Source of the DNA: Actinostola sp. cb2023 | Taxonomy: Eukaryota > Cnidaria > Anthozoa > Actiniaria > Actinostolidae | Assembly (NCBI GenBank): GCA_033675265.1 | Contig: JAUJYZ010000195.1 | Span: 62,001 to 126,000 of the forward strand | Length of the DNA stretch: 64,000 nt | Reading direction: 5' to 3' | In this document: piece after piece, positions 38,563-61,752 of the stretch | Layout: every line of letters starts with the position of its first letter | How positions within the stretch are numbered: position 1 is the stretch's first letter | Notes under the pieces: model-generated | Databases searched by the model: none | Told to the model about the DNA's origin: nothing | Seen by the model: the letters and a program-made list of their open reading frames with translations, nothing else | Made by a program: the position numbers and the translations under genes

Positions 38563-39103
38563 TTATTTACATAAAGTAGATAATCTTGACTCTGATTTAA
38601 AAAAAAACAGTTCATAATCTCTTTGCAATTTATCTTGAAATACTTTAACAACGGAGTCTGATTCATCATTTAACGAGATCGATATTCTGATCCGATGGGC
38701 ACGGGCTGGCCTTTGACTATCTCCTCTACTCCATTTGGCCTTCTCGATCACTTCACTGTGGAACAAGTTAAGTCAGATTTAATATTTGAAATAGACATTT
38801 GACGTTTATCTATAAGCAACAAACAATTCAAAGGCACTCTTACCATTCTGCATTCATTATTTTGTTTTCGTCTAATAAAGGCGAAATCATGGATGCCACA
38901 TCTCTATTCAAAACTGCCCTGGGTTTCTGAAAGCGATCCACTAGTTCTACACAATTAGGGTCTTTGGGGTTCATCTGCTGCCGTTTCAAAGAATACATTT
39001 TTCCAACAATCAGATCTTCGTTGCGAAAATACACCATTCCAACAGCTCTAACTCTTTTCCCCACCGGCGAGTCTTTCTTTTCTTGAAAAGATATTTGCTT
39101 CAT
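38563..39103 (-). CDS. HIRAN-domain protein, two exons, ~150 aa
   Basis: HIRAN domains bind single-stranded 3'-OH DNA ends in HLTF/Rad5-type helicases and also occur alone in mobile elements. Exon 1 is 39103-38844 (ATG at 39103, donor GTAAGAG), exon 2 is 38755-38563 (acceptor CACAG, stop TAA); the phase-2 junction gives 150 residues without stops. Visible HIRAN pattern: RVRAVGMVYF (residues ~18-27), KRQQMNPKDPNCVEL (~40-54), VASMISPLLDE (~69-79), ending in HRIRISISL and a tail that is mostly hydrophilic. There is no helicase or nuclease domain. A broken second copy lies 2 kb away. HIRAN assignment is from motif order. Confidence 0.65.
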
Positions 39104-40858
39104 GGTTACAAGAGTATCAGTACATTACCGGCCTCATGCAGTCACAAATTGACAGCTAAAACTTTACTGACGCTTGTATTGTTCATCATACCTTCTCCAA
39201 CGTCAAAACTGTCAGATGTCATAACATGTAACAGAGAAATGTCCGGGTAGAGCGGAAAACTCGAAAAACTAGTTAAATCTATTCTTAAAGTGGCATGAAC
39301 AATAAGAAGAGTCCTTGTTACGATGAGTATCAAAGATAATTAGGGCCACTTACAGCACTATTAAATATATGCGGTTTGTTTGCTTAAAAGTATTGTGTAT
39401 CTCAGCTGCGTGCCAACACAACAAAAATTTATCATGACTTTGTTAGAGCCGAACAATTTCTATGACTCTAGTGCAAAGCATAGAAGTAGAAACCCTGGAA
39501 ACTACCATAATTGACATGATACAATACTCTAGTTTGCGCAATTAAATACCAGGGAGTATCATCCTGAATTTCGCCATCTGACCTGAGACTCAAACTTATG
39601 TTTTATCTTAGTCGCAGTTTGGCATTTTTTTCTCGACTGTGATAACATAAATTGGAGCCAATAAATTTCTCAGCCGATAACGATCCAACCAATGAAAACC
39701 AATAATAATGCATACTAGTAGACCCTAAATCAACTGTTTCCTTTTGTTGAATTTTTACTAATACACTGTACACTAAATAGCTAGTTTTTATTTAACAGTC
39801 CGATGAAAATCACTCTAAATGAATAGATGAATAGATATAGACAACCATCCATAATCTTTTCTAGTTATGCAATATGAACTTGCGCCCCGGAAAGTAAAAT
39901 ATGTGTTACTATGTTATAATTCAATAGCAATGGGACTTTTTTCGGCTTTTTTTGCCGTGTAAACAACTAGCTTAACTTTGTTATAAGGTGTTTCCACTGG
40001 TGTTTCGGAATTTCTTTGTTAAGCTAGCAAATGTCTAGTGGAAACGCAGCCCTTTTATCTAAACCGAAAAACAAGCGTCAAGCAACTCCATGACGAAAAA
40101 ATGTTACATACAAGTGTTAATGGAACAAACCACCTCCTACTTAATAGATTTTTGTGAAGTGAAACGTTTTAGTGAAGTTCTGTCAACATTTCTAAAATGT
40201 CACTTTTTTGGACAATTTCATGGCTGGAAGTGTTTGTTTAGGCGGAGCCTGGAATTTCAACTTGCAAAACTTGTTCTGGTAAAAGTTTAGCTTGGCACTC
40301 ATTAACCTCATGCATACACTATGCATTTTAGGTCGCCTAAAATTCCTTTAGGTGTTTGTTTACTGACCAACTTTAGACTAGTATAATTTGCCGACTGTTT
40401 TCACTGTAAACTTTTTTTAACGTTATGAAGAACATATCTGATTACAAACGACTCTTCGAAGAAATGCAGGGAGAGAAAACGCTTGTCTCTACATCCCTAC
40501 TCATAATTGTTACAATATTTATTTCAATAACGATAGGAATTTCTTCAAAACTCTGTAATTTCTTTGATTTGAATAGTCTTTTACGAACGTCTGTTGTACG
40601 CTACGAGAGATTACATAAATAAACTGACAGATATCTGTCAACCAGTTTGCTGTGAGTGGCTGCGGTGTTTACCAGGACAAGTTAAACCATCTTGCTAGGT
40701 AGTCTAACTTTGGTGTGATTTCCGTTGTTTTAGAGACAATTTTGTAAGTGAAAACACTCTGCATTTTTAACTCGCTTAACTTTTTCTAGGCTGTTTTCAC
40801 TGTATTTCCGGAGTTTCCGAGTTAAACTAGTCTAAATTGTCCCAGTGAAAACACACCC

Positions 40859-41768
40859 ATTCTCTAGCAATCAGCACTAGTTGACTTCATAAATGAGCCG
40901 CTAGCAGACCTTATCGAACTTCGACGCCGTACTGATGCCGACAATTTTTTTTGGTCAAATGTCAAAAGTGTCAGATTTCATGACTTGAAACAGAACTGGA
41001 AAACTCTCACATAATTTTGGATTTTGTGATGTTCAGTTCAGGGTACACTATTTCAAACAAAGTTTCGATAAATTAGCAAATGTTAAAAACATCGGGGTTG
41101 TGTCTAAAAATGTTGCCTCGAAACGCGCAGTTACTCTTGTTTTTAGCTAAAATACCAAACATGTTAGCTAAAGCGAAATATTAAATACATTCATATGGCT
41201 TTGCATTTGGTCTCGCAAAAGGCTTATCGCCATTCAGCCAATTCTCAGCGCCGACTTTGCCTAGCTGGTTGACAGATGTAGCTGCTTTATTCGCAAAAGA
41301 GGAAGAACACGTTCACGTTCGTGCATGCGAAAGATTTGGTTTTGGCGGGCCGTACGTGGCTTTTGGCAGGATTAAACGTTAAAATAAAAAGCCTGGAAAA
41401 CAGAATAAAAAGCAGTATACCTATTCTACCGAAGTCAACAATACTATGAAATGATGTAACTGCAACAAGCTAGCTAAAAACACGTTCGTTCACATTGAGT
41501 TATGGTATTTAACTAACTTTAATATAAAAGCTAGAAGTCGAGCTGTTCAGGCTTTGCTACTTGTTGGGACTTGAATCAGTTCGTCAGCTTTGTCATTTTG
41601 CTTTGTTTCCGAATAAATCTAAATGGTCGGAGTATATAGCAGTAAAGCGATAATATCGTCATTTTATTTAAACGCGAATAAATCTACCTAAACAATTAAG
41701 TGACGTTAAACATTGTTTAACAAGCGCGAGTTTCTTTTACTATGCCAGTAATTCAATACCAGTATTCA
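40859..41768. other. Spacer with HIRAN-upstream-like sequence
   Basis: The stretch near 40960-41020 (GTCAGATTTCATGACTTGAAACAG, GGAAAACTC) resembles the upstream region of the HIRAN gene near 39205-39265. No coding part remains. Confidence 0.4.
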
Positions 41769-41776
41769 ATATATGT

Positions 41777-42728
41777 CAGGCGGTGGTCGCACTACGACCG
41801 CAACGCATCACGGAAAATTTTTGAAATACGAGTCATTTACAACTGGTCTCGGTACAGTACACATCATTGCCAGTCTTTATTCTCCTGTAATATTCCACTT
41901 ATCACTCTACTTTTACGTAAATAGGGTAACAAAACTCTTTTGTAGTGAACTTTATGGGAATTTTCGAACAAATATGCGAAGAAAATTAAAACATTTCTGG
42001 ATTAACCAGACAAACTGAAATTCCCGATGACAGGCATGAAATGTGACCCAAAGGTCAAACTGCGTGACTACTTCGAGTAGACGAACCAAAACAAATTGGT
42101 TTCAAGAGAATTGTAAGAACAAGAAAATCATCGCATATGTTCTTTGACTGAAGCTTAAATCCTACACTTTCCCAAAGTTCAAACCCAAAGTTACATTTGT
42201 TGTGCAAACCCCGCTTTGGAATTTCATGTCTCATACCGGGCTCATAGCAGCCAGTGACAGGATACGTGACTTCGGCGGAAATTGGCTACAAGAAACACAG
42301 TTTTCAAATCATGAAAACAGAGATATAGAGTGGGGCGCGATGGGGCGCGTTTATACTGGCTCAAAGCGCCATTCCAGTACAACACTATGAAATCTTCAAA
42401 AATGCCATCCAAAGTAAAATAAGAAAAATATCATCCAAATAATGACCCGTCGTCAAATTACATGCGTGTGGTTAAAAAATACATAGCCTACATTAAAATG
42501 ATAAATTCTCTACAAATATCAATTGAATCACAACGAAATGGCCAGAATATCTTCGCTTAATTATGCATGTTATCATCCTTCAAAGATGATATCAATCAAG
42601 AAAATACTTCTTACATAAAATCCAATGTTAAGTTACCCTTCTGAAAGCACAAAGCAGCCATGATTTTGGCAAAATGCGTGAAAAAGTGCTACCATACTGC
42701 TTTGCGGTCGTAGTGCGACCACCGCCTG
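41777..42728. mobile_element. 952-bp hAT-type MITE with 8-bp target duplication
   Basis: Ends CAGGCGGTGGTCGCACTACG and its reverse complement, stem ~27 bp, with ATATATGT on both sides (41769-41776 and 42729-42736). An 8-bp duplication and a CAG.G start fit hAT elements. No transposase inside. Confidence 0.92.
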
Positions 42729-42736
42729 ATATATGT

Positions 42737-44430
42737 GATCTTTTGGGCGGATTAGATTTTATTAGCCCGTGAAGGAATGGTCAAACAAGTCAAAAACTAG
42801 AAAAAAGTAGCAGCTTCTATTCAATCGAAGTCATGATAATTAGTAATTTCCTTTTGATAAACAGTTTTATGGAAGCACTGGATCTATTTTTGCAATACCA
42901 ACTAAAATCCGTATGTTTGCAAATAAGTTACTCGGAATTCAGTAGCACGACTTATCATACGTCAGTTTGATTGACAGGCATGCAGTTTATATTTCAGGCA
43001 GTAGTTGAAGTGCAAATACACCAATCATAATTATTGTTGTTATAAATTCATGTGTTCTTTATTGTATCTGGCTCAGTCGTTTGGTAAATCTGAAGGTTAT
43101 TTTACGATCGGAGCGACTAGCCCGTGGGCTCCATATTTTCTTTTCTCATGTGCTCTGCGAGCGTTCGGATGTTCATTGTTACTGAGTAACACAAGACCGG
43201 ATGTGTACCTTTCGGGATCAGGGCACATATCAATCTGCAAAACCACCAAATTATTGAGAGAAGATATGAATGACTTCTTGATCTTCGATAATGTACAATT
43301 ATATCGTTACATTGTTCAAGTAAATGACAACCCGAATATGCTATTCACTCCGCTTAAAAAATATATTGTTTACACGTGCGTCCGTATCAGTCAAAACAAC
43401 TACAGTTAATATTTATTTAGATTTATTTGATACAAAACTTCCACTAATGACATGTTATAAACGTAGTCATTTCAGTCTAGCCAGCAGCCGATTCGAATTT
43501 ATTAAACTGACATTAGGTTCAGTTCGGTTTGAGTTCTTTCCTAAATTTCAGACTGTTCATTTTATTGCGCTTTTCTACCTAGGCAACAGCAAAAAATGTA
43601 TTGAAAATCGATATGATTTGTGTTCAAATTACCCAAACTTTGGGTAAATACAATATGTTTCAAGAGAAACTTAACTAGACGTACGACTTCTTGTTGGATA
43701 CCAGGTGAAGTTTTCCTAGTTTTATATATTAGGTTTAATCCAATCAAAAGAATGGGACAAAGGGACAAAGGGAGAGACACCGTCCACTAGTGGAGAATGT
43801 TTCCTGCTGTTGCTAAGCTACAACTGTTATTTCGGAGATCAGTGCATCAGGCGCTATCGAGTAAATTCACAAACAATGTACACTGTTTGTTCATAATAGT
43901 GTTTTGTATTATTTAAATGTTTTGCAGATTAGTTATATTTACAGGAAAAATTATCTTCATTTGCAAGAATGCAAATGGCTGAAGAACACCTGTTGTGGTA
44001 TACCATTAATAACAAGTTTGTATACATTATATCACATCAATCAATCGGCAATCATTAAGATGGTCATCCCAGGGTCTATTCCTACCATTCCTATCCACTG
44101 CCTTATAAGCATTGTCTGCATGTACTATACGAGTTTTTTTATAATGGCATTGATTTTTTGGCAAACCGGCACCCCGATAACGAACATATACCAATAAAAC
44201 AAATGTTTTAGACTGTTTTAGTTTTTATTGTACGACATTACATCGGTCAGATGACACGTGCCGTTACCAGCCGGCGTTATAAATTATATTTGTTAAATTA
44301 AGGAGTATTGAGATTTCTTCTGCGATTTCGAATCAACTGCATGTTCTTGAATAATAATATATATATATATATATATATAAGTAATTACTTCCCATTGCCG
44401 TGTTGACTCTGGTTCGACGTTACAACTTTT
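42737..44430. other. Unassigned AT-rich region
   Basis: Open frames at 43005-43409 and 43904-44197 have no recognised motif, ordinary starts or splice context. A (TA)n run is at 44357-44380. No gene is called. Confidence 0.5.
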
Positions 44431-44439
44431 GGTTAGGTC

Positions 44440-45300
44440 TTTGGTCATGTTTTTGATTTTGATGGCTTTTGTTGCGCTTTGCAGATGTTTCTGTGAATTT
44501 TTGATGCGATTGTCAGTAATGACTTTTGCTACAGATTTTTGCAGCCGTGCCTGTGAAGATTGCGGCGATTGTCGTTGATATCAGTTCGTTGAATCCAGTT
44601 CGATCGATGTTTGATTTTTTTTGGTCATGTTTTTGATTTTGATGGCTTTTGTTGCGCTTTGCAGATGTTCCTGTGAATTTTTGATGCGATTGTCAGTAAT
44701 GACTTTTGCTACAGATTTTTGCAGCCGTGCCTGTGAAGATTGCGGCGATTGTCGTTGATATCAGTTCGTTGAATCCAGTTCGATCGATGTTTGATTTTTT
44801 TTGGTCATGTTTTTGATTTTGATGGCTTTTGTTGCGCTTTGCAGATGTTCCTGTGAATTTTTGATGCGATTGTCAGTAATGACTTTTGCTACAGATTTTT
44901 GCAGCCGTGCCTGTGAAGATTGCGGCGATTGTCGTTGATATCAGTTCGTTGAATCCAGTTCGATCGATGTTTGATTTTTTTTGGTCATGTTTTTTTGATT
45001 TTGATGGCTTTTGTTGCGCTTTGCAGATGTTCCTGTGAATTTTTTTGATGCGATTGTCAGTAATGACTTTTGCTACAGATTTTTGCAGCCGTGCCTGTGA
45101 AGATTGCGGCGATTGTCGTTGATATCAGTTCGTTGAATCCAGTTCGATCGATGTTTGATTTTTTTTGGTCATGTTTTTGATTTTGATGGCTTTTGTTGCG
45201 CTTTGCAGATGTTCCTGTGAATTTTTGATGCGATTGTCAGTAATGACTTTTGCTACAGATTTTTGCAGCCGTGCCTGTGAAGATTGCGGCGATTGGCATT
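44440..45300. repeat. 180-bp satellite, ~5 units, upstream of the transposase gene
   Basis: The unit contains GATGGCTTTTGTTGCGCTTT, GCGATTGTCAGTAATGACTT, GCCGTGCCTGTGAAGATTGC and ATCCAGTTCGATCGATG. Period is 180-183 bp; units are almost identical and differ mainly in T-run length. It ends ~330 bp before the transposase start codon, where subterminal binding sites or a promoter would be expected. Confidence 0.95.
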
Positions 45301-45971
45301 GAAGATTGCAACGATCGTATGAATTAGTCCGTTGAATCCGGTTCCATATGGAAATTACTTTATCGATTGGTTTCGAGAACTTTAGCAACGAACATTGCAA
45401 TTCCGTCGAAGTTTAGATGTAATTTTGTTTCCACGATCATTTTTTTCAGGCAAGACGACACAGCAAGAGCGCACGAAGAGCGAAGTCATCTGGCACCAAA
45501 AAGTCTGCAAGGTACTGTGGTGTTGCAATTATCGGTGTTAATAGGTGTGCATTTTTGGTGATATGAAGGGCCGGTTTTTGCTAATTTGTTCGTCTATTAC
45601 TTTTTATAGGCAATTTTCATGCACAGTGAAAATGGTGAAGGTGAGGGACCTAGATACATTTCTAATATGAAATAAATACAATGCTGTTTTGTTTAAGTTG
45701 TCATTCTTCGAAAAACGCGCTCGATATGCATATGAACGCGAAAAACTGACAATACTTGTGACACAATCTAGCGTTGACAAGTCCCGCGCTCATTGAAGAG
45801 TGTCAAACTTTGAGATGCAATGAGAATTTTCTGAGAATTTTCCGAGAAATGATTCAATGATTTTGGATCACTGGGCTGGTATTGCTGGAAATTTCCACTA
45901 CTCACTTGCGTTTTTTTTTAACACATAGGTGTACTAGCTAGATATAACGTATATTTGTTGTTGTCCGACAG

Positions 45972-46450
45972 GTTTCAGATGTTGAACGTTGGCTTCAAGA
46001 AAACATTGAGCGTGATGAGGAGGCGTCGATCGAAAAACTCAAACTGTGGGAAAGATTCTCCAGTTCGATGAATCCTAAAGAAGAGGTGGGAAAAGACACT
46101 TTTTTCGCATATCTAGGCATTGCATTGCAATAGCAAAATTCCCATGGGTGTCAGTAATATTAAAAAAGCGACGGCAAATAGGTTTTAGAGGTTTGAGACT
46201 AATAGCGAACGAAGAAGAAAAAGGTTCAAAGCGACTCAAGACCAACAACACCTTTAGTACAACTGTTATCCAAGAATGGATGACGGCTAATTTTTGCGAA
46301 GGAGGACCTGATGACAGTGTTTCGCGTGAGGAAATGTGGTCTCAATTTAAAGCCAAAAATGCATCGGTCACTGATGACGACAGAGAGGTCTTCTTTTCTT
46401 ATATGGGCAATGTTTTACAAAAACATCCATTCAACAACAAGAAAAAAGAA
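45972..46450 (+). other. Two RFX-like winged-helix units (N-terminus of the giant protein)
   Basis: Unit 1: VERWLQENIERD, LWERFSSSM, FFAYLGIA, then after the 5-nt duplication AKFPWVSVILKKRR and GFRGLRLI. Unit 2: VIQEWMTANF, MWSQFKAKN, VFFSYMGNVLQKHPF. The pattern W...N.....S...LW..F...FF.YLG..L..FP resembles RFX-type DNA-binding domains (WLQ.NY...LY..Y......FGK.IR..FP). The role would be recognition of transposon ends. The RFX link is by pattern only. Confidence 0.5.
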
Positions 46451-47091
46451 AACCAATCAGTGTCTGATTTACAGGCAGACCAAGACAAATTTTCGTCTTC
46501 ATCACAAGTAAGGAATGGCATTGACAGCAGTGAAGGGGGTAATTTCTTTGATGCAAGTGACTTACCTGAGACACTGGACGAAACACCGCAAGACACAATC
46601 GATGAAAGCAATCACCAGTTAATGCCGGACGTCGCGGACCATCTTACAGAAGATTATTATTCATCTGAAGACACAGCATCTGAAGACACAGCCTCGACAA
46701 TGGATTGTTCAGAAAAAAACGAGGACGTCATCGACATAGAAAGCGATAGTGAAAAGGAAGACTTGAGTGTGAATGTTTTGGAAGAGTTTTTTGAAAAGTT
46801 CCGCAAACATGTTGGTCGTTTGGTGCCATCGAAATTGCTAAAGAAATTCAGTTCTTTTCAAGCCTACCTGACCAGCTTGTTTCCGAAGTCCGAAAGCTTC
46901 GTGAAAGACCGCGAAGAAATTCACTTGGCGTCTGGCAGTACATCTGTTTATGCAGATGCCCGCATTCGCGCATTTATTGCTACGTGTTTCCCACCAGTAG
47001 AAGTTGGTAGCCTTGCTGGCGATTACCTCCCTTTCACATTTCAAGGCGATATTTCCTCAATTTACGCACCATGGGAATCAAAATGTTCAAT

Positions 47092-48619
47092 GTGCTATTT
47101 GCATATCCTACCTCAAGTGGGCTATTCAAAATCAGAAGCCTCACTCACAGTGCAGGTCAAAGAAGGCATCGAATGACGCAGTTCTCTCTGGTACTGCTCG
47201 ACTGGAATTTTCTGGTTTAGTGCAGGCACGCGAACATAAACTTTCCAAATGCCACGCGGAGGCTATTGAGTTTTTCAAAAGAGATAGAGAGTTGACAACA
47301 CAAATTTCGTCTGCCATTAAAGAGGAAAATGTTGAAAAAAAAGATAGACCGATTTCGTCTTACTTCATTGCAAAGAAGCCTTTAAACTAGATACGACCTC
47401 CGAGTTCCAACAACTAAGCAACACAAAGAGAAAAGTAAAGTGTTACTACCTTTGGGATTCGGAGGTCGTTAAACAGTTTGCACAAGATTCAAGTATAAGA
47501 AGAACCACGCCAGCTACCCTTTACAGACAGCGTGTTAGCAATGGTAAAGTACGCTGCTTCAAAGATTCACCTGGACATGAGGGCTGTTCTACCTATGCTG
47601 GCTGGAAATCTCTCCATGAGATAGATGCCCAATCTCTTAAAGATGAAGCTAATAGAAAGTCCAAGTCAATCTTTGTTCCTTACCTCCAAGAAATATGTGT
47701 CAACGGTAAGCAAATCAGTATAGATGGCGGTATAAAAAGCCTAGATCCTCCCTGTCTAGAAGAAGCTTTTTCATACGGAGATCACCCCTATACGTGTGAT
47801 ATCTGTTTCCGGCAGTTGAGAGAGCTAAAAGACACTCTTCGACACCGCAGATCTGGTAGTCTTGAAGGTAAGGAAAATAGGCTCGGGTTGAAAGGGTTCA
47901 ACAAACGTTACGCCAGAAGAGCAGAAATTGTTGACGCATTCGAAGTGGAAACGCAACGCAGGAAAATGGCAGAAGGTACAGTGAAAGGTCTTATAAGGAG
48001 GGCATTGACTCAGCGAGAATGGGAAGACATCCTACATGAATCATGCCTAACTGGTGAGGATCAGAAGTTCGCCATAGACTTGATTCGCTTAATGAAAGGA
48101 GGAATCTCTAAAACCAACCCCATGCAAGTGAATGTACTGAAAAACCTTGTATTAAAACTCAAGAAAGGCAGGAATCACAAATACGTTGAATGCATCAAAG
48201 ATATAAGTGGTCTTTTCAAAAATGAATTAGGGCCGACTAATTATTCTCTCCTTGCTGAAATCTTTGGCCTTGCTAGAGAAACTACTGCTGCAGCGCATTC
48301 TGCTATGTCTAGGTTGGAGCCTGGTTTAAATAAAGGTGTGATAAGTTCTGCAGCATTGACATTCAAAGGCCTTCCAGTCATCGAAGGAAGTGACGGTGCT
48401 CGGTGTCTTCGATATCTTCAAGCACGAAAGACGAAGGACGATAAAGTCGTCTTAGTTGGAAATGCTTGGAATCCTAACGTTGAAACCTGGAAAAATGAAG
48501 AATTGACAATTCCTAGAAAAGATCCATCAAAGGGTGACCAAGACGACTTCGCAGCAATAAAACGGCTGATCGAAACCTTAATAAAGAAAGATAGATTGTC
48601 AAAAACAGTTTCCGTGCAC
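47092..48619 (+). CDS. Giant protein, Cys-rich and pre-catalytic segment (two frames)
   Basis: First part (47092-47387, frame ending at TAG 47390) has CAICISYLKWA, SGLVQAREHKLSKCH and a PISSYF segment. The second (from 47390, open to TAA 48625) has KVKCYYLWDSEVVKQF, HEGCSTYAGWK, IDGGIKSLDPPCLEEAF, YTCDICFRQLRELK and a long helical part with KTNPMQVNVLKNL and RLFK-like repeats. CxxC pairs suggest zinc binding. The two parts overlap at the third frameshift. Confidence 0.65.
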
Positions 48620-48621
48620 AC

Positions 48622-51120
48622 TTAACAGCTTTGGCATCTCTGGAAAAGCCAACTCTCATTACCTGCATGTGGCCAACACAAGACAAAGGCTACAACCACT
48701 CACACCTACTGAAGTACTGGGAGGAGTTAAGAAAAAACTGCTATTATGACGAAACTGGAGCAGTCCGCAACCCTCCGATCAATTTGATTGGATTTTCAAC
48801 TGACTCAGCTGGCTTTTCTTTGTCTGCTGCTAAGCATCTGATGACGCCGTCAGCTGAAGAAATTAAAAGTGGAATCCATTATCTTGGCCTGGGTATTAAA
48901 GAAGAGCGGTTTCTTGCTCCTTACTACTGGTGTCTGCCATCAATCGCTTATTTAGACTATGACCACGAACAAAGGCTTTTCCTGAAAAGTCTCAAATACA
49001 GAACACGAGAATTGACATTTTGGAAACAAGACGGAATTAATTCTAGACTTGCGACGATATCACACCTTAAGGATCTCAAACATCAATGTGAATCGTTGGG
49101 ATTGGATTGCGGTTTCACTGCTACTGATCTACTTTTGATATACTTCTGCGATCAGAACTCCGATGCTTGTGAAAGAATGTTTACCATCCGTGCTGCTGAT
49201 CTCTTAGATGAATATGTTCAGGGTTCTCAGGCCACAAGCCTCTACATAAGGGCCGTGTACCACTTAATCCAACCTTTTCGTGTGCCGAATTTTGGCTCTC
49301 CCCACGATGTTCAAAAATCAGTGTCATGTGGTATCCACATCTTAAGGTTATGGAGGAAAGTAGTGGAGCTCAGCAACATGCGTTTGCATGCAGCGCCAGG
49401 CGCAAAATCTGATCCCTCAAAGCGCGGCAACTTTATAACAAGTGGATGCTATGATACGGCAGAAATTCTCTTTTCTGCTGCAACGATACATCAGCTAACA
49501 ATGTTTCTGCATTTTAAAGACCTCGGACCTCAATGGGCATCCCCGTACAATTCCGGTACGAAGATGACAGAACGAATTATCGCTGAACTCCAAGGGAAAA
49601 CCACTGAAATACAGTCGCTGGACTCTCAGCCAACCTTCGGAGATATGCTTGATAAATGTACAAAGGTTCAGTTTAATATAAATGCAAAACATCGCCTAGC
49701 AATGAAAGGAGTTAATGTAAAAGCCTCTAACAAAAGGAAGAAGCTTGCATTTGCTTTCAAGAAAAGTGAAAGTAAACAACTCGAGAAATACCCAGAAGAT
49801 TATTTAGAATTCAGGGCTGCGCAAATTGACGCACATAAAGTAGGAGTTTCCGAAGCGAAATTTATATTTCAAAAATACATGCCCCCCGAGTGTGTCAATT
49901 TCTTAAAGTCTGCTAACAGCTGGGAAACACCTTACTCCTTTTCAAAGCCAGATGGTTGTATTATAGTTGACAAACCTCCCACGGATTTAGATACCGGTAG
50001 ACTACTCGACCTTTCCTTTTCCAACGTTACCAAAGAGGTAGAATCAAATGACCCAGATACTGATGAAAAGGAGAACGAAATTGAAGAAGAAGAACAGCAG
50101 ATTGAAGATGAGGATGACACATCTGGTTGTAAACTAGATGAAGAGAGTGAACCGGTAAATTATGAAGGTGACAAAAAGTGGAAGCTTAGCAAGAATGTCA
50201 ATGGAAAGGTAACCTACATCCATGTCAAACAAGCGGTAAAGATTCTCTTGCCACGCGAGTACATTTCACGCAGTAGAGGTAAAAGGCACTGGGCATCAAA
50301 GTATCTTCCGGGAAAAGAACCACTGAATCCAAGGCACGACATATACAAATACTGCAACGTGGCCTTAAAGGTACGGCGAAATAACAAAAACGTTTATGAA
50401 ATAGCTAGAGTGGAATCTATAGAGTCAGCAAGTGGGACAGAAATTTTAAGTTTTGACTCTAAAGAAAAGCGGTGTGATGGAGTAAGAATTCGCTGTTCAC
50501 TTTATAGCAGAAACGAAAAAGGCACCTATTATGTTCCAGAAAATGTTATCATCACACAGTGGAAATCTTCTTCTTCAATCATTTGTGCTGTACTCCTTCA
50601 GCCAGCCGAGTCTCAGATTTCAAGAACGTATCTTTTGGATCAAGAATCGAAGTCTCACCTTGAAAACGCTGGATTCGTTGCTTTAGACGACGCAGCATGT
50701 TCCTCCCCAAATACTTCACAAGAAGACCATTCTGATTCTGATCCTGATATTAAACCAGAGGTTGAGGAAGGATTTTTCGAGATTGACGAAATTGTAGGAA
50801 GACGTCTGTCAAAAGATTCAATGACGTATGAATACAAAGTTCGATTTAAGGGATATGGACCAGAGGACGACATGTGGCTACCTTCCTCTTTCTTTAACAG
50901 AGCGGTAACATTTGAGTCAACTTCCAAATTTGGGAGGAAAAGAAAACATACTGTGGACCCAAACAACGCTCAAGAACCTCCCAAGAAGAAGAAAGTGAAG
51001 AAAAAAAGCAGCTCTAATGATAATAAGTTAAATGATTCGAAAGAAGATCAAATAAAGATGAAGGTGAAAAAAACAGCCACTTCAAAAAAATACCCAAAAC
51101 AAGCAACCATCCTTGGATGA
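48622..51120 (+). CDS. Giant protein, RNase H-type transposase core plus chromodomain
   Basis: 830 open codons, continuing the previous segment after a 1-nt shift (SVH...LTALASL). Candidate acidic triad by pattern: Asp in FSTDSAG (codon 48802), Asp in YLDYDHEQR (48955 or 48961, with the D..H spacing seen in many eukaryotic transposases) and Glu in KMTERIIAELQGKT (49570). Between them are an all-helical insertion (LIYFCDQNSDACERMF), GSPHDVQKSVSCG and FITSGCYDTAEI. After an acidic linker, a chromodomain (50759-50900) reads FFEIDEIVGRRL, YKVRFKGYGPEDDMWLP: aromatic cage positions F, F and W instead of Y, W and W. A Lys-rich tail follows. Superfamily name not assignable from memory with confidence. 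Confidence 0.7.
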   Translation, partial: LTALASLEKPTLITCMWPTQDKGYNHSHLLKYWEELRKNCYYDETGAVRNPPINLIGFSTDSAGFSLSAAKHLMTPSAEEIKSGIHYLGLGIKEERFLAPYYWCLPSIAYLDYDHEQRLFLKSLKYRTRELTFWKQDGINSRLATISHLKDLKHQCESLGLDCGFTATDLLLIYFCDQNSDACERMFTIRAADLLDEYVQGSQATSLYIRAVYHLIQPFRVPNFGSPHDVQKSVSCGIHILRLWRKVVELSNMRLHAAPGAKSDPSKRGNFITSGCYDTAEILFSAATIHQLTMFLHFKDLGPQWASPYNSGTKMTERIIAELQGKTTEIQSLDSQPTFGDMLDKCTKVQFNINAKHRLAMKGVNVKASNKRKKLAFAFKKSESKQLEKYPEDYLEFRAAQIDAHKVGVSEAKFIFQKYMPPECVNFLKSANSWETPYSFSKPDGCIIVDKPPTDLDTGRLLDLSFSNVTKEVESNDPDTDEKENEIEEEEQQIEDEDDTSGCKLDEESEPVNYEGDKKWKLSKNVNGKVTYIHVKQAVKILLPREYISRSRGKRHWASKYLPGKEPLNPRHDIYKYCNVALKVRRNNKNVYEIARVESIESASGTEILSFDSKEKRCDGVRIRCSLYSRNEKGTYYVPENVIITQWKSSSSIICAVLLQPAESQISRTYLLDQESKSHLENAGFVALDDAACSSPNTSQEDHSDSDPDIKPEVEEGFFEIDEIVGRRLSKDSMTYEYKVRFKGYGPEDDMWLPSSFFNRAVTFESTSKFGRKRKHTVDPNNAQEPPKKKKVKKKSSSNDNKLNDSKEDQIKMKVKKTATSKKYPKQATILG

Positions 51121-53068
51121 CAGTTTAGATGATAAGAAACCCGATGAGAAAGCTGTTCTAAAGGACATCATGCAGCCAAAACATGGCGTGAAGATGGATA
51201 CTCCACCAACAACGGCCTCAAAGAGAAAGTGCAATCGACAGAAAACAATGACTAGAAAGGAAAAAGGAAGGTTGTACAGACAATCGTTGTCAACAGCATC
51301 TCAGAGTAAGATACCAAGAAAACAGCACGAAAACGAGGGTACCTGCCCAAAACCACCAACCATCCACGATGACAGTTCGGATGATGGGACACTTGAAGAG
51401 GAAGCCGTTAAAGCGGACATGGTGCAGCCAAAACATGGCGTGAAGATGGATACTCCACCAACAACGGCCTCAAAGAGAAAGTGCAATCGACAGAAAACAA
51501 TGACTAGAAAGGAAAAAGGAAGGTTGTACAGACAATCGTTGTCAACAGCATCTCAGAGTAAGATACCAAGAAAACAGCACGAAAACGAGGGTACCTGCCC
51601 AAAACCACCAACCATCCACGATGACAGTTCGGATGATGGGACACTTGAAGAGGAAGCCGTTAAAGCGGACATGGTGCAGCCAAAACATGGCGTGAAGATG
51701 GATACTCCACCAACAACGGCCTCAAAGAGAAAGTGCAATCGACAGAAAACAATGACTAGAAAGGAAAAAGGAAGGTTGTACAGACAATCGTTGTCAACAG
51801 CATCTCAGAGTAAGATACCAAGAAAACAGCACGAAAACGAGGGTACCTGCCCAAAACCACCAACCATCCACGATGACAGTTCGGATGATGGGACACTTGA
51901 AGAGGAAGCCGTTAAAGCGGACATGGTGCAGCCAAAACATGGCGTGAAGATGGGAAATCAAGTCAATGCTGCCACAATTCTAAGCTCGGAAGACGATGTT
52001 TCCTCAGATGATGAGGAATTAGAGGATGAGGGAGTTTTGAAAGACATAAAGCGTCGGGATGACAATTTTATTCATCCACGGAGAATTATTGCTTATACTC
52101 AATTTCCTGACGTTGATGATACTCTCAGTGTCTACAGCACGAGCAATACAATTGACGGACCAATTACGAATGCTCTTAAAGTCAACAGACTACCACCGTA
52201 TTCTACCCTAGAAGCTGCAGCAGAGGAATTTAGACGCAACAATGATTCAGCCTTCTTTATCCAATTCAAATCGTTTGGAACATTTGACAGACAGGGAATA
52301 AGGCATCTACAGAGATTTCACAGACTCAAACAACTGAGAAAGGAAGTTGAGTTTGAAGAAAAATGGCTTGAAAATGCATTTGAAAATCTTGGGAGCAATT
52401 TCAAAGATGCCGTCACCGGTGCTCTTCTCGACAGGTGGAATCCTGATGGCAACTTCCTGTCGTCTTATACCAACTACGTTGTAACATCCCAAGATCTTTC
52501 ATTGTTATGTGGCGAAAGATATCTTTCCGACGAAATAATTAACTTACTCTTGCATAAAGACTGTGACAAAGCCAATGAGATGGAGAAATCTACGAAATTC
52601 TTACTACTCCCATCCTTTCTTTCGACTGGTATGGTTTCTGGTGATGTAATTAGACGAGCATGTGATTCTGTACACATTCATGAAGTGAAAACCATATTTT
52701 TACCAGTTCATATGGTTCCTGCTCATTGGGGCCTTTTGGTGATTTCCGTTTCCGAAAAGACTCCATATTTTGACGATGGAATTCACTGTGCAATAACGAA
52801 AGAACTTCAAAATACTGTAAAAAAGATAATTACTGTAATCCATGACCATTACAAACTGCCGGAGTATGATCCTGTTCAGTGGAAAGGCGTTCAACGACTT
52901 CGACATCCTATACCTTCCCAACCTAAAGATTCTGGCAGTTGTGGCATTGCAGTAATATGTGCTGCCCGCGATATAATTAATGGAGCAACACCTTATACTT
53001 GGACCTTTAAAGACATGAAACGCCTGCGCGCCACTTTGATGGCAGAAATAGTTGCAATGCCGCAGTGA
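51113..53068 (+). CDS. Giant protein, repeat region and Ulp1/SENP-like cysteine protease
   Basis: 651 codons, originally in frame with the preceding segment (a 1-nt insertion near 51112 separates them; first repeat half already shows KQ-LDDSLDD). Three identical 84-residue repeats are followed by an acidic linker and a C48-type protease (~residues 455-651): YLSDEIINLLL (entry helix), PVHMVPAHWGLLVI with His 52724, TPYFDDG with Asp 52772, QPKDSGSCGIAVIC with Gln and Cys 52940. All catalytic residues are present. Such proteases cut SUMO or polyproteins; in a transposon it might process the giant protein or remove SUMO from chromatin near the target. Confidence 0.8.
   Translation: MDDSLDDKKPDEKAVLKDIMQPKHGVKMDTPPTTASKRKCNRQKTMTRKEKGRLYRQSLSTASQSKIPRKQHENEGTCPKPPTIHDDSSDDGTLEEEAVKADMVQPKHGVKMDTPPTTASKRKCNRQKTMTRKEKGRLYRQSLSTASQSKIPRKQHENEGTCPKPPTIHDDSSDDGTLEEEAVKADMVQPKHGVKMDTPPTTASKRKCNRQKTMTRKEKGRLYRQSLSTASQSKIPRKQHENEGTCPKPPTIHDDSSDDGTLEEEAVKADMVQPKHGVKMGNQVNAATILSSEDDVSSDDEELEDEGVLKDIKRRDDNFIHPRRIIAYTQFPDVDDTLSVYSTSNTIDGPITNALKVNRLPPYSTLEAAAEEFRRNNDSAFFIQFKSFGTFDRQGIRHLQRFHRLKQLRKEVEFEEKWLENAFENLGSNFKDAVTGALLDRWNPDGNFLSSYTNYVVTSQDLSLLCGERYLSDEIINLLLHKDCDKANEMEKSTKFLLLPSFLSTGMVSGDVIRRACDSVHIHEVKTIFLPVHMVPAHWGLLVISVSEKTPYFDDGIHCAITKELQNTVKKIITVIHDHYKLPEYDPVQWKGVQRLRHPIPSQPKDSGSCGIAVICAARDIINGATPYTWTFKDMKRLRATLMAEIVAMPQ
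51172..51927. repeat. Three identical 252-bp in-frame repeats
   Basis: Units start at 51172, 51424 and 51676, with a partial one at 51928. I see no nucleotide difference between them. Each encodes 84 residues with KRKCNRQKTMTRKEKGRLYR (basic, NLS-like) and DDSSDDGTLEEEAV (acidic). An older diverged half unit precedes them. Confidence 0.95.
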
Positions 53069-53116
53069 TAGTCATCTTATAGTGACATCCATCGCGCTGA
53101 TAAAATACAACAGCAA

Positions 53117-54440
53117 GTATGAAGTCAATGCCGTCAATCCATTACCTACTAAAGAACACTATGCTGATATCTAGAACTTTTTTTATCCACCATCTTCTGT
53201 CACTGCGTCATCTCGTTGGTCTGTCTCGCTCCTATAGCCAGTATGAAGTCAATGCCGTCAATCCATTACCTACTAAAGAACACTATGATGATATCTAGAA
53301 CCTTTTTTATCCACCATCTTCTGTCACTACTGCGTCATCTCGTTGGTCTGTCTCGCTCCTATAGCCAGTATGAAGTCAATGCCGTCAATCCATTACCTAC
53401 TAAAGAACACTATGCTGATATCTAGAACCTTTTTTTATCCACCATCTTCTGTCACTACTGCGTCATCTCGTTGGTCTGTCTCGCTCCTATAGCCAGTATG
53501 AAGTCAATGCCGTCAATCCATTACCTACTAAAGAACACTATGATGATATCTAGAACCTTTTTTATCCACCATCTTCTGTCACTGCGTCATCTCGTTGGTC
53601 TGTCTCGCTCCTATAGCCAGTATGAAGTCAATGCCGTCAATCCATTACCTTCTAAAGAACACTATGCTGATATCTAGAACCTTTTTTTATCCACCATCTT
53701 CTGTCACTACTGCGTCATCTCGTTGGTCTGTCTCGCTCCTATAGCCAGTATGAAGTCAATGCCGTCAATCCATTACCTACTAAAGAACACTATGCTGATA
53801 TCTAGAACTTTTTTTTATCCACCATCTTCTGTCACTGCGTCATCTCGTTGGTCTGTCTCGCTCCTATAGCCAGTATGAAGTCAATGCCGTCAATCCATTA
53901 CCTACTAAAGAACACTATGATGATATCTAGAACCTTTTTTATCCACCATCTTCTGTCACTGCGTCATCTCGTTGGTCTGTCTCGCTCCTATAGCCAGTAT
54001 GAAGTCAATGCCGTCAATCCATTACCTACTAAAGAACACTATGCTGATATCTAGAACCTTTTTTTATCCACCATCTTCTGTCACTACTGCGTCATCTCGT
54101 TGGTCTGTCTCTCGCTCCTATAGCCAGTATGAAGTCAATGCCGTCAATCCATTACCTACTAAAGAACACTATGCTGATATCTAGAACCTTTTTTTATCCA
54201 CCATCTTCTGTCACTACTGCGTCATCTCGTTGGTCTGTCTCGCTCCTATAGCAAGTATGAAGTCAATGCCGTCAATCCATTACCTACTAAAGAACACTAT
54301 GCTGATATCTAGAACCTTTTTTATCCACCATCTTCTGTCACTGCGTCGATCATCTCGTTGAACTGTCTCACTCCTACAGCAAGTATGAAGGCAATGCCGT
54401 CAATCCATTACCTACTAAAGAACACTATGCTGATATTTAG
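53117..54440. repeat. ~126-bp satellite, ~11 units, downstream of the transposase gene
   Basis: The unit contains AGTATGAAGTCAATGCCGTC, TACTAAAGAACACTATG, TGATATCTAGAACC and CGTCATCTCGTTGGTCTGTC. Period 125-130 bp; variation is mainly in T-run length and a CTA insertion. It begins ~50 nt after the stop codon. It probably holds the polyadenylation or subterminal region; repeated short open frames in it are artefacts. Confidence 0.95.
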
Positions 54441-55380
54441 GACTTTGTTGTATTTTTGTACAACGATTACTTACTTCGTTTATGCAATGCCTAGATATTA
54501 CTGATCCCACCTCTTACGGAATAGGAAACTAAACGAGACAAGATCAGAGCAACCACGCCACATCGTTGAACTCTTTTCTTAACTTGCCATTCAAACTGGA
54601 AAAACATGCAATCAAACTAAGTAAAAACAAAAAAAAGTAACAACAACAACAACCAAAAAAAAACATTACAAAAATACAAAAACTAAAACAAAAAGGGAAG
54701 AAAAAAAGAATCAGCGTTACAGTTAATACTTATTACGACTAAAGACCTGGGATATGCGAAAGGACTGCATGGCCTACTAATTACAAGGCTCATTTATCTT
54801 GACACTCCTAACACTCCTGGCTTTACAAACATTTTTCCCCATCAGGGCGTCAGTGCTTTGTCGTAGCGATGGGGCTCGTTTGTGCATCGCAGTAAAAGCA
54901 CAATCGCTAAATCTGTCGCCACATGAAAGTTAGTAATGTTCAATGTCACTATAGCTATATAGTGTAAAGAAGAATATAAAGACGTGTACAGTAAATGGAA
55001 AAGAACAATTGTTATACATTGGATTCGTTTATTTACAGTGTCATCTTTTGGTAAGTCACTACGTTAATGTCTTTAATTTTTTAATAAAGAGGTCAAGTAA
55101 CCTCTCTCCCTGAAATCAAGCACTACAGTCAAATGAAAAGAGCACCTTGGTCTTCCTAAAAGTGTAAGATTGGATCTTTTTCGTGCAATTCAATATACAA
55201 GGCGTTTTTGTAAATGAATCTAATCAGTTCTCCTAAGAAAATATTCAATCTTAAGTCTGCTGCGAACTTTTCTTTTTGATTTAGGAGACACTGGGTTACG
55301 TGCTTGGTCTAATGCATAAGGCCGATCGTGAGAATACTAGCTATATATAAAATTATCTAAGGAATTGGAGTAATTTCACC
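54441..55380. other. Unassigned spacer with A-rich tract
   Basis: A-rich at 54620-54710 (AACAACAACAACC, AAAAACTAAAAC). No gene recognised. Confidence 0.5.
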
Positions 55381-55394
55381 AGCGCTGGGGAAAA

Positions 55395-55576
55395 AAAAAT
55401 GGAAAATACTCTGGCTGGCAAAACCAAATACAAATCCCTACTCGCTGGCAAAACCAAATGGAAATCCCTACTCGCTGGGAAAATACTCTCATTTTTAAAG
55501 GGCTAGCTGGTAAAATGATATTTTACATGCCTTGCTGGCTGGGAAATTTATTTGGAAAAATTTGGCTGGCTGGCAC
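55395..55576. repeat. Right GCTGG-rich repeat cluster
   Basis: Repeats of CTCGCTGGCAAAACCAAATR and GGCTGGCTGGGAAATTT, ending against TGAGGAGCGGATATTTT. It resembles the left cluster at 35270-35520. Confidence 0.7.
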
Positions 55577-55682
55577 TGAGGAGCGGATATTTTTTTCCCA
55601 GGGATGTTAATAATTAACTATAATTAGCGTGGGAACACATGTCGAGTGTTTTAGACATCATATTGAGTGATTTGAGGAAAAG

Positions 55683-56830
55683 GTGTCGTTGGGTACTCTT
55701 GACAGTCAATACGATGAAGCAAAATCATGATACGAAAGAGCTCTAGCCATTTATGAGACTGTGTATCGTACAAATCACCCATCGATTGGAATTGCCCATC
55801 GCAAAAAAGAGCAGGGGACTGGGAGCGAGTTTATTAGAATTAATGTAATTACGAAATTAAGTTATGACATGAAACAACATGTTGAAATTATCATATGTGC
55901 AAAGTTTGATGTGATTTGAGTGAATTCTGTCGGAATTATAAACTTTTGAAATTTTGAAATTTTACAGTGAATGTATGGTTTGGGTAGACAACGTAAAAAA
56001 ATAGAGAGTTTGTATGGGAAAATGTACATCTTTGATGCCCTCTAGCATCGTCAATATTAAGCCAAAGTTCACCAAACTTTCCAGATTAGCTAAGTTTGGT
56101 CTGCTCTCTCAGAAAATGATGCCCACTTTTGCTACTTTCTTATACGCCCTATGCACGCGTCCTGATTTTCGATATCAGAATACTAGAATCTGTCACATAA
56201 AAATAACCACTGCCATCTGAAAAAGCATTTATTCATCGATATTTTTGGAAAAGTTCAAAAGTATTGGATAAAATCCCGCGAAGATATCGTAAATGACATT
56301 TATAGGTTTAGTATGGGATTTTGCCGTCATTAGTACACAGCCTCGTTCTGATGTACATCAATTTTCCAAATTGCTTCATTTCAAGGTTTAACACGTTCCA
56401 CTAAAAGAAGAGATTTATATAAGATTAGTGTAAAAGCTTCAGGGCGAAATGACATGTCCTTGCGGAGTTATGAACGTTTTTAATTCTGAAAATACATCAG
56501 AACGAGGCTGTGTACTAATTACGGCAAAATCCCATACTAAACCTATAAATGTCATTTATGATATCTTCGCGGGATTTTATCCAATACTTTTGAACTTTTC
56601 CAAAAATATCGATGAATAAATGCTTTTTCAGATGGCAGTGGTTATTTTTATGTGACAGATTCTAGTATTCTGATATCGAAAATCAGGACGCGTGCATAGA
56701 GCGTATTGAATTAGTTTTACGGACTTGGTCCCAGTCCCCTGCTCTTTTTTGTAATGGCCAATAGCTAGTACCTTGGTGTTATTCACAAGTCACTGGGACA
56801 ATACGACAATATTTTTCGTTGTTTTTGTGC
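55683..56830 (+). pseudogene. TPR-repeat gene fragment split by a hairpin element
   Basis: 55683-55800 reads VSLGTLDSQYDEAKS, a stop, then YERALAIYETVYRTNHPSIG: the TPR pattern of nephrocystin-3/kinesin-light-chain-like repeats found behind NB-ATPases in cnidarian NLRs. After the inserted element, 56760-56810 continues LGVIHKSLGQYDN. Stops and the insertion make it non-functional. It lies ~3.3 kb upstream of the HEPN/NB-ATPase gene on the same strand and may be a relic of a neighbouring gene. Confidence 0.65.
55803..56754. mobile_element. Hairpin element inserted in the TPR fragment
   Basis: Ends AAAAAAGAGCAGGGGACTGG and CCAGTCCCCTGCTCTTTTTT are inverted. A second, longer inverted part pairs 56137-56360 with 56486-56710 (ATCAGAATACTAGAATCTGT, ATCCCATACTAAACCTAT). 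About 950 bp, no coding content. Confidence 0.85.
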
Positions 56831-57277
56831 TTTATTTTCTTTTAAATATCATTTCAATGTAATTCATTCTATTGCTCTCACGCACAGTGCCTGTTCAACC
56901 GTTATATTTTTTGTCTCCATAGTTACCATTTGTTGTTTTGTTGTGTACACTTATTTAGCTCGCGCGGTTTTTCTAATTGTAACGCCCTGAAGATGGACGC
57001 AGAAGTCCGAAAGCTTGTCATATTAAACAAATTGTCGAAACTTAAAATCTACAAATATAAGTCTAGAATTATTCATCCGTTGGATGATGTCAGATTTCCT
57101 CGAAACAATTATGCATACATATAAGCATTTTAAAGCATCGAGACGAGTGTCGGGTTAAAGTAGATGGAACTAAATGTAATAGCTACGAGAATCTCTTTTA
57201 TTATGTAGACTTGCACATGATTTTGAGTTTGAACTTCCTGTGGGCCGAACCCTTCAGCCTCTTTCCCATGTAGGTTG
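56831..57277. other. Unassigned; short open frame
   Basis: An open frame at 56930-57124 includes ALKMDAEVRKLVILNKLSKL. It may be the edge of a retroelement, but I cannot name it. Confidence 0.3.
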
Positions 57278-57321
57278 ATATGTGCAAGCTTGCATATATA
57301 AATATGCAAGCTTGCACATAT
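57278..57321. repeat. Perfect palindrome with 20-bp arms
   Basis: ATATGTGCAAGCTTGCATAT and its reverse complement are separated by 4 nt. It could extrude as a cruciform. Confidence 0.85.
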
Positions 57322-57816
57322 GAACCAGTTGTGATCTAAACTACGCGATAGTTCTTTTGCTAACACATCACATATCATTTGATGCCTGACTACGAATGGT
57401 AAGTGTTAGCATACACTTGAAATGTCAGTAAATCATGCAATAATTGATCGACCATCGTCACAATAGTTTTGCTCTCACACTTTGATACTAGTACAGTCAA
57501 GAGTGGGACATTGCCTGGGTGCGTAATTATGTTCTATTATTTCCTTCTATTTTGGCGGCAAAAGACATTCAATGAAGTCAGTGCACTTCTTTGCTCGATT
57601 AGAATTGAAAGACATCAAAGTTTCCTCCAACATATTCATCTGAGCGAAGTTTAATAGAACTTTCAGTACTTTGTTGATCGCCAGACGAAATCGAAAGTAC
57701 GATGATTTTCAATGGTAAAAGCTTACGGCAACATTAAAACAGAACCTGATCTCCTAAATTCCATAAAGCGAGGAATGCAATAAGCCTATCAAATCTTTCA
57801 TCAGATGTACTTGTCC

Positions 57817-59768: not shown

Positions 59769-60062
59769 AAGGGAAAGCAAATAATTAATTAATTAAAATT
59801 ATAAATTATAAATTACTTCAGATTTTCAAACGTTCTTGCTCAAACCAGAAAAAGTTCTTATAACAAGAGAAGAACACTGCCACGATTTTGTTGTGGGGGG
59901 AGGGGGAGAATCATTTGTCGATTTGATGCAAAATCGCTCTTATTATTTCCCATGCTGCGGCCTTCCGTTTCGTACTTGGTGTATAGTGTTTTTTTTTTTG
60001 TGTTTATGGTTTTCCAAAATGAAAATTCTTCTAATTGTCTTTTGCACACATAGCAAGAATAC

Positions 60063-61577
60063 ATGGAATTTACACAAGAACACCTCAACTACTTCACATT
60101 ATGTTACATCGTCACTGGTGTCGTCCCAGAAGGTCTACGAACGATTTTCAAGCAAGAATGGGACGCTTTGTACGCTGGTACGCCGCACGGTCCATGGGAA
60201 AATACGCCAGCAAATTACAATTCTTTCAACTCAATGGAATCTAAAAAGAATCGCAAACGTAATCAGCACCTTCTAAAAATGATGACCAATGGAGACCGGA
60301 TTGAATGGGACTGCACCTGCTTGTTTTACGCAATCATGTATTCAGACAGTGTAGGACCAATGTTACATCCTATTGTTCAGAAGAGCGTCGATGATGTACG
60401 AGTTATCCGAAATGAAGTCTTTGCCCACAACATTGATGGAGGTGTAACCGAAGCAGATTTCCAAGCATCCATTACGAAGATTATAAACGCATTCACGGCA
60501 TTAAAGCTTGATACGACCAAGCTGGAGGTGTTGAAGGACCAACCAACCTTCCCAACAGAGGAACTTAACAACATCAAGCAGAAGTTGGAAGACGAAAAGA
60601 AGAGAAATGCAGAACCAAGTTCGTTTTGTGTCCTACCCGCCAAACCCTCTCACGACACTATTGATCGAATGGATGAAGTTGGTAGGATATATGAACAAAT
60701 GAATCGGCTATCAAGTGAAAAGAAGGGAAAGACGACGGTTGTTTATCTGTCTGGAATGCCCGGATGCGGTAAGAGTGAAATGGCAAGACAGATCGGAGAG
60801 AAATACTTCCTTTCTGATGACACCACAGATCTAGTGTTTATCATGACAATCAATGCGTCTAATATGGACACGCTGCTCCAATCGTACGTTGAATTTGCTA
60901 CCAGACTAAAATGCCATCCCAACGACATATCAAGAATAGCCACACCAAAAGATCTTTCTCAAGAGAATAAATTCAACCAACTAAGAGCTCTTACTGTTCA
61001 GCAAGTAGGCAAATATCCATGTTGGCTGATGATTATAGATAACGTGAACGATCTGGACTCATTTTCAAAATACTGGCCGCAGACTGGGGAAAAGACAAGA
61101 GGTAGCAGTGGTCAGATCCTGGTCACCACACAGGACAGGCTTTCTATTTTTGCTACCTCTAACACTAAACACGTACCTCTTAGTTGTGGCATGGCAGAGG
61201 AGGATGCTATTGAACTACTTTCTAAAGTATCAGGGTTGGTAGATGACAAGGAGATGATGATAAAAGTAGCCAAGACCTTGGATTTGCAGCCATTGGCCTT
61301 GGCATGCGCTGGTGTCTACATGCAGTGCAGTCGCACCACAAACACTGAGGTTACTTGGCAACGATACTTGGAAGAACTTGATTATGGGAAACGCAAAGCG
61401 TCGGAGAGGCTGTACAATAACATAAGCTTGCATTATAAGATCACGAATGTCACAGCTGGCAATGTTTCCGTGATGAGCGAAATTCAGGAAGAACAGACAT
61501 ATAGTCGTCAGTATTTGATGGCCATAGTAATAATAATAATGTTGCTATTTTCTATTTACACTCGTTTACTTGTATAA
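60063..61577 (+). CDS. NLR-like protein: DZIP3-type HEPN + NB-ATPase, short hydrophobic tail
   Basis: 504 residues. Residues ~1-150 match the HEPN-like domain of cnidarian DZIP3-like NLRs (EFTQEHLNYFTLCYI, GLRTIFKQEWDALY, EWDCTCLFYAIMYSD, RNEVFAH). Residues ~165-215 are a charged linker. An NB-ARC/NACHT-type ATPase follows: P-loop GMPGCGKS (~residues 233-240), Walker B WLMIIDNVND, sensor QILVTTQDR, and a LQPLALACAGVYM helix. These are intracellular immune-type sensors, with HEPN as a likely RNase or adaptor. The family normally continues with a winged helix and TPRs; here, after KITNVTAG, an unrelated ~38-residue tail ends in a hydrophobic stretch (AIVIIIMLLFSIY). The start was chosen at the ATG preceding EFTQE; an acceptor-like ACACATAG at ~60053 suggests a 5' exon. 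Confidence 0.85.
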   Translation: MEFTQEHLNYFTLCYIVTGVVPEGLRTIFKQEWDALYAGTPHGPWENTPANYNSFNSMESKKNRKRNQHLLKMMTNGDRIEWDCTCLFYAIMYSDSVGPMLHPIVQKSVDDVRVIRNEVFAHNIDGGVTEADFQASITKIINAFTALKLDTTKLEVLKDQPTFPTEELNNIKQKLEDEKKRNAEPSSFCVLPAKPSHDTIDRMDEVGRIYEQMNRLSSEKKGKTTVVYLSGMPGCGKSEMARQIGEKYFLSDDTTDLVFIMTINASNMDTLLQSYVEFATRLKCHPNDISRIATPKDLSQENKFNQLRALTVQQVGKYPCWLMIIDNVNDLDSFSKYWPQTGEKTRGSSGQILVTTQDRLSIFATSNTKHVPLSCGMAEEDAIELLSKVSGLVDDKEMMIKVAKTLDLQPLALACAGVYMQCSRTTNTEVTWQRYLEELDYGKRKASERLYNNISLHYKITNVTAGNVSVMSEIQEEQTYSRQYLMAIVIIIMLLFSIYTRLLV

Positions 61578-61633: not shown

Positions 61634-61635
61634 GA

Positions 61636-61675
<40 letters not shown>

Positions 61676-61679
61676 AAAA

Positions 61680-61743
<64 letters not shown>

Positions 61744-61752
61744 GAGAAAGAA

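Follow-up and report, generated by a model that had tools for sequence, protein, structure and literature searches.

What kind of gene occupies the long run of open segments in a 64,000-nucleotide stretch of the sea anemone Actinostola sp. cb2023 (GenBank assembly GCA_033675265.1, contig JAUJYZ010000195.1, positions 62,001 to 126,000; hereafter the window), and how is it expressed? A preliminary description, made from the letters alone, had joined five open segments into one mobile-element protein of about 2,370 residues. Our analysis points to a transposon with a transposase core resembling that of the P element, in which two open reading frames (ORF1 and ORF2) would be joined by -1 frameshifting and the product would carry chromatin readers and a protease. 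We give this explanation as a whole a probability of roughly 0.7.

The limits of the element were read from other copies in the same genome. The window lies on contig C183 of a 424-Mb assembly, in which the open segment 48595-51117 (segment 4) has 41 matches in a genome search. Comparison with contigs C825, C1266 and C1499 showed a shared block, mostly more than 99% identical, that begins at 35224 (C825, C1266) and stops at 55701 (C1266, C1499). The flanking sequences are unlike. The features of the element's frame are as follows.

35224 to 55701, no strand: whole transposon, 20,478 base pairs (bp), the block shared with C825 (left end), C1266 (both ends) and C1499 (right end)
35224 to 35234, plus strand: left terminal inverted repeat, CAAGAGTACCC; its first base is the start of 13 of 16 left-end genome matches
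55691 to 55701, minus strand: right terminal inverted repeat, the reverse complement of CAAGAGTACCC; its last base is reached by 7 of 11 right-end genome matches
35219 to 35223, no strand: left target-site duplication, ACAGT
55702 to 55706, no strand: right target-site duplication, ACAGT
44440 to 45302, no strand: tandem array of a 180-bp unit, upstream of the gene
53112 to 54440, no strand: tandem array of a 128-bp unit, downstream of the gene

Target-site duplications were read at five loci. Besides that in the window, duplications flank an internally deleted copy of 1,654 bp on C910 (ATATAAA, 7 bp) and the copies on C286 (TTGATT, 6 bp) and C1538 (GAGAAT, 6 bp). The termini, the shared block and the duplications of 5-7 bp indicate that the element is a transposon with a varied duplication length, and the copy in the window appears to be a recent one of a cut-and-paste DNA transposon 20.5 kb long. 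The copy on C1499 lacks all sequence left of 45925 and is therefore truncated; it keeps the long open frame. The gene forms the right half of the element, between the two tandem arrays, and the preliminary description had taken in only part of the element. A candidate extent ending near the tandem arrays was rejected because the copies extend about 9 kb more to the left and 1.3 kb more to the right; an inverted-repeat search of 41500-45970 against 53069-57600 gave no convincing pair.

The preliminary description had predicted a DDE-type core and proposed its catalytic residues. Structure prediction gave an RNase H fold, as expected of such a core. The residues were located from conservation among the relatives and from the model.

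48152 to 49692, plus strand: P-like transposase core, by correspondence with residues 240-753 of the model of relative P0020
48392 to 48394, plus strand: predicted first catalytic Asp, in 54 of 55 relatives; beta-1 of the model
48802 to 48804, plus strand: predicted second catalytic Asp, in 84 of 84 relatives; right after beta-4
48955 to 48966, plus strand: D(2)H motif, with Asp in 86 and His in 85 of 86 relatives; right after beta-5
49570 to 49572, plus strand: predicted catalytic Glu, in 83 of 84 relatives; in the helix behind the insertion domain

An account of the P superfamily (PMC8230255) gives as its signature a D in beta-1, a D at beta-4, [C/D](2)H after beta-5 and an E in alpha-4, and the core shows all four. 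The D..H motif of the preliminary description was thus borne out, whereas its triad of 48802, 48955/48961 and 49570 had to be revised: the model gives 48392, which sits in segment 3, as the first Asp, 48802 as the second and 49570 as the Glu. Position 48955 was rejected as the second catalytic Asp since the model places the D(2)H motif there. When the window segment was structurally realigned after Foldseek, P ranked first, and the core would be distantly related in structure to the P-element transposase. A viral source for it was not supported, as BFVD gave no match at E <= 0.001.

Several further domains lie on either side of the core.

45975 to 46198, plus strand: first RFX-like unit of ORF1; its frame is broken in the window copy and open in C825
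46253 to 46444, plus strand: second RFX-like unit of ORF1
47052 to 47279, plus strand: conserved Cys-x2-Cys ... His ... Cys-His of ORF1, a putative zinc finger (tblastn with P0063 to P0066 and others)
50323 to 50700, plus strand: tentative BAH/chromo-barrel-like domain
50776 to 50883, plus strand: chromodomain (PF00385, E 5.7e-6, 26.6 bits against a cut-off of 25.1; CDYL, MPP8 and HP1 sequences)
51093 to 51953, plus strand: in-frame tandem repeat of 252 bp, 3.4 copies
52439 to 53053, plus strand: Ulp1/SENP-type protease domain (PF02902, E 7.2e-6, above the cut-off; SENP2, E 2.4e-8)

The chromodomain and the intact protease of the preliminary description both stood, each being above its Pfam cut-off. 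The solved sequence nearest to the chromodomain is CDYL, and those nearest to the protease are SENP2/SENP1; the protease codons His 52724, Asp 52775, Gln 52919 and Cys 52940 (first bases) align with H/D/Q/C of SENP2. For the two RFX-like units that it had named, support is weak. One of eight units matches PF02257, the RFX DNA-binding domain (E 5.5e-4), P0082 scores 14 bits against this family's cut-off of 27, and the best solved-sequence match of the unit profile is RFX5, with a weak E of 1.3. The Cys/His stretch may bind zinc. The C-terminal tail seems to be modular, since PF04843, which we take to be a herpesvirus tegument protease family, lies ahead of or together with the Ulp1 domain in six relatives (P0027, P0030, P0085, P0087, P0088 and P0091), and the end of P0082 carries, by eye, a PHD-finger-like Cys/His stretch.

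How these domains come to be translated together depends on the frame breaks. The long open segments of the window are 46079-47173 (segment 2), 47001-47387 (segment 2b), 47348-48622 (segment 3), 48595-51117 (segment 4) and 51068-53065 (segment 5), with an additional short one at 45972-46130. On C825 a single frame of 479 residues runs through the N-terminal unit and segments 2 and 2b, and on C1499 one of 1,822 residues runs through segments 3, 4 and 5. Four of the five breaks in the window are therefore absent in some other copy, and these four may be either mutations or assembly errors. The break between segments 2b and 3 is identical in the window, C825, C1266 and C916, and looks like a candidate -1 frameshift site. 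As for the joining of five segments in the preliminary description, their order recurs in the relative P0066, a single chain of 2,301 residues that includes the N-terminal units, the protease and all between them, so that the parts are not always separate genes; a single frame of about 2,370 residues was not borne out in the clade of the window element, where four copies share the 2b/3 break.

47381 to 53068, plus strand: ORF2, with two more frame breaks in the window copy and a single frame in C1499
47381 to 47387, plus strand: slippery heptamer T_TTA_AAC, with the stop codon of ORF1 (TAG, 47388-47390) directly behind it
47393 to 47410, plus strand: 5' arm of a hairpin, after a spacer of 5 nucleotides (nt); -34.0 kcal/mol, z -6.09, 0 of 200 shuffles
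47452 to 47469, plus strand: 3' arm of the hairpin, from the same fold and its pair counts

T_TTA_AAC followed by TAG in the ORF1 frame is common to the window, C825, C1266 and C1499, and TTTAAAC is also present in C916, C1054, C1389 and C828. These last four belong to a second subfamily, about 66% identical to the window (core DNA aligned by blastn). The heptamer has the form X_XXY_YYZ in the phase of the 0 frame in the window type and in C916, and on the ORF2 side also in C828; in C916 the phase is consistent with both frames. A hairpin of the kind that would stimulate slipping follows in both subfamilies: that of the window type has 18 pairs, and that of the C916 type (-27.9 kcal/mol, z -3.42, 1 of 200 shuffles as stable) follows an identical heptamer at the same spacing. 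Over three distinct rows, 93.8% of the cells pair; sliding lowers this to 52.1% or less. TTTAAAC was absent at the expected place in C88, C286, C636, C400 (two) and C509, most of which are decayed or uncovered there. From these signals, expression is probably by two open reading frames with -1 frameshifting rather than by one frame.

The start of ORF1 may lie further upstream, and the spliced MVK start at 45632 of the preliminary description is one candidate for it. The ORF1-type relatives P0098, P0099, P0101 and P0104 start with MSDVERWL. An upstream first exon is plausible because the window has Val ahead of SDVERWL and the first Met of the ORF1 frame of C825 is residue 40. The Actinostola gene model P0042 has a splice just ahead of VSDVERWL, but with a different first exon; from core to protease this model matches the window at about 95-100% identity.

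Among proteins, segment 4 has 62 relatives; a longer query added 34, and a further search gave 13 ORF1-type proteins. The few relatives named by organism are all cnidarian (Actinostola, Oculina, Desmophyllum and Clytia, corals included). The slip site is reached by 10 of the 13 ORF1-type proteins, and all ten have Leu-Asn there, the product of T_TTA_AAC, which suggests the same heptamer in these relatives. After Leu-Asn, six proteins have no further residue, three have one and one has 11. P0106 and P0108 end ahead of the slip site, and P0101 exits the frame before it. Since P0097, on a contig of 2,196 bases, shows 100% identity to the query across 92% of its length, the part covered, nine of the ten rows are independent of the window copy. 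In two cases (P0101 with P0001, P0098 with P0068) ORF1 and ORF2 were predicted on contigs of the same size.

A number of observations weigh against the explanation adopted here. The immediate ORF1 stop is limited to the window type; in C916 the stop comes 10 codons past the heptamer. At two hairpin pairs both partners have changed, one such pair being open in C828, and the covariation is matched by 89 of 500 shuffles because there are only three distinct rows. The degenerate copies C1137 and C286 lack the heptamer, while C1137 retains the hairpin. Of 59 relatives covering segment 3, 12 continue into it without a change of frame, 16 begin at its residues 16-58 and 31 further in, so that the slip would be a trait of only part of the family. 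The copy on C1266 was without a target-site duplication, and the duplications at the other four loci are uneven (5, 6, 6 and 7 bp). As for the core, Foldseek alone placed no P match among the best 50 of 560 for the window segment and none at E <= 0.001; sequence searches gave no P-element match at E <= 10, nor any among the 25 of 28 families listed elsewhere.

It is conceivable that ORF1 is spliced to ORF2 across the frame change at 47381, or that ORF2 initiates its own translation, with no frameshift at all. P0042 has introns, and the 16 relatives starting at residues 16-58 of segment 3 are what an independent ORF2 would give. However, the two frames have about 40 nt in common, and the PLN and CxYLW stretches lie about as far apart as in read-through relatives such as P0066, which leaves little space for an intron. 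The first Met of the ORF2 frame of C1499 is residue 206, deep inside, and the heptamer, spacer and hairpin would have to be there by chance in two subfamilies. We therefore regard splicing or self-initiation as unlikely. That all five breaks are errors in a decayed or misassembled gene, the living element having one frame like P0066, would agree with the four breaks missing from at least one other copy and with the read-through in P0063 to P0066; it is very improbable in view of the 2b/3 break shared by four copies and of the ORF1 proteins of nine other elements that terminate at the same place. A host gene or domesticated transposase could account for the long frames and the rich set of chromatin domains, but terminal repeats, duplications and an internally deleted copy are present, segment 4 has 41 genome matches, near-identical copies lie at different sites, and clusters of relatives hold up to 539 member sequences. 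This last idea is scarcely credible.

For a frameshifting transposon, the following course can be proposed. Most likely, ribosomes would stop at 47388 and yield ORF1 alone, a protein with the RFX-like units and the putative zinc finger that would bind DNA and may restrain transposition. A fraction of ribosomes, stalled by the hairpin, would slip back one base on T_TTA_AAC and make an ORF1-ORF2 fusion, with a DNA-binding head, the DDE core, the BAH/chromo-barrel-like and chromo readers and the protease tail in this order. The fusion would bind the element ends, cut by means of Asp 48392, Asp 48802 and Glu 49570, and insert at new sites with duplications of 5-7 bp. The readers might steer it to, or retain it in, chromatin with methylated histones, and the protease might strip SUMO-like tags or trim its own chain.

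Other features were found within the element and around it. The left half contains one open frame with a near-threshold match.

38843 to 39124, minus strand: HIRAN-like open frame (PF08797, E 5.9e-5, 23.3 bits, just under the cut-off of 24.7)

A second, decayed HIRAN-like stretch was seen by eye at 36480-36870 (minus strand), of which 36637-36867 had no Pfam match. For nine more small frames in the left half, Pfam gave nothing except a sub-threshold FANCM-MHF match. An inverted repeat pair of about 97 nt, about 91% alike (36997-37093 and 40762-40858), is perhaps a small nested element, and a 6.5-kb insertion in the C1266 copy (31533-38038, corresponding to 41921 in the window) has ends resembling inverted repeats, as in a nested element. 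Just beyond the right end of the transposon, 56142-56355 and 56493-56706 form a 214-nt inverted repeat, 99% complementary, with the arms 137 nt apart. Elsewhere in the window, an open frame of 507 residues (60054-61577, plus strand) has a P-loop, GMPGCGKSEMARQIGEKY, and looks by eye like a NACHT/STAND NTPase; the end of a 259-residue frame (6047-6826, plus strand) presumably resembles, by eye, the GIY-YIG endonuclease of Penelope-like retroelements. Tandem arrays occupy 1743-6042 (a 20-bp unit, 211 times), 16008-17083 (ATAG, 271 times) and 61634-62225 (GAAA, 148 times).

The preliminary description had not recognised the domain arrangement. Our literature search, with Repbase entries outside its reach, found no description of it, nor an earlier eukaryotic cut-and-paste transposon with OrfA/OrfAB logic; the core itself is apparently of a known, P-element-like kind. 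The P element is described with an 8-bp target duplication and 31-bp terminal inverted repeats (PMC7776569), whereas the present element has duplications of 5-7 bp and repeats of 11 bp. In comparison with the P element (Drosophila TNP) and THAP9, it has RFX-like units and a putative zinc finger instead of THAP, and readers and an Ulp1 protease behind the core. No THAP domain was among the profile matches listed (25 of 28 families in one search), where a weak profile could miss one. A further mark of the P superfamily is GTP as a cofactor. The match of the core to Transib/RAG is clearly below that to P in both models. Like KDZ (Zisupton, Kyakuja, Dileera) and Ginger, the element is a eukaryotic DNA transposon; KDZ duplications are given as 7-8 bp (PMC12730594), and by term counts the Ginger paper frequently mentions the Ulp1 protease (PMC2836005). 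KDZ/Zisupton, our initial guess, was rejected because the fold points to P and neither a KDZ nor an integrase profile was among the matches listed, where a weak KDZ profile could be missed.

The closest likeness in expression is to bacterial IS elements such as IS1 and IS3, with overlapping frames, a DNA-binding first product and a transposase made as a -1 fusion (PMC5009743); the frameshift passages of that source on eukaryotes deal with retroelements. The present element would share this OrfA/OrfB plan, and differs from IS1/IS3 in being eukaryotic, in its P-like core, in its far longer chain and in a T_TTA_AAC signal that a hairpin would stimulate. We consider it slightly better than an even chance that it represents a new cnidarian lineage at the superfamily level, with a P-like transposase made from two overlapping frames by a -1 slip, with readers and a SUMO-type protease, and the first eukaryotic cut-and-paste transposon with OrfA/OrfAB logic. 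Such an element would unite in a single chain a P-type transposase, the reading of chromatin and SUMO biology, and would extend the range of structures known for the P fold. Should the slip prove real, control of transposase dosage by frameshifting could be tested in an animal, the signal (about 100 nt) being short enough for a reporter, and eukaryotic and bacterial DNA transposons would have converged on a short DNA-binding product plus a rarer full transposase.
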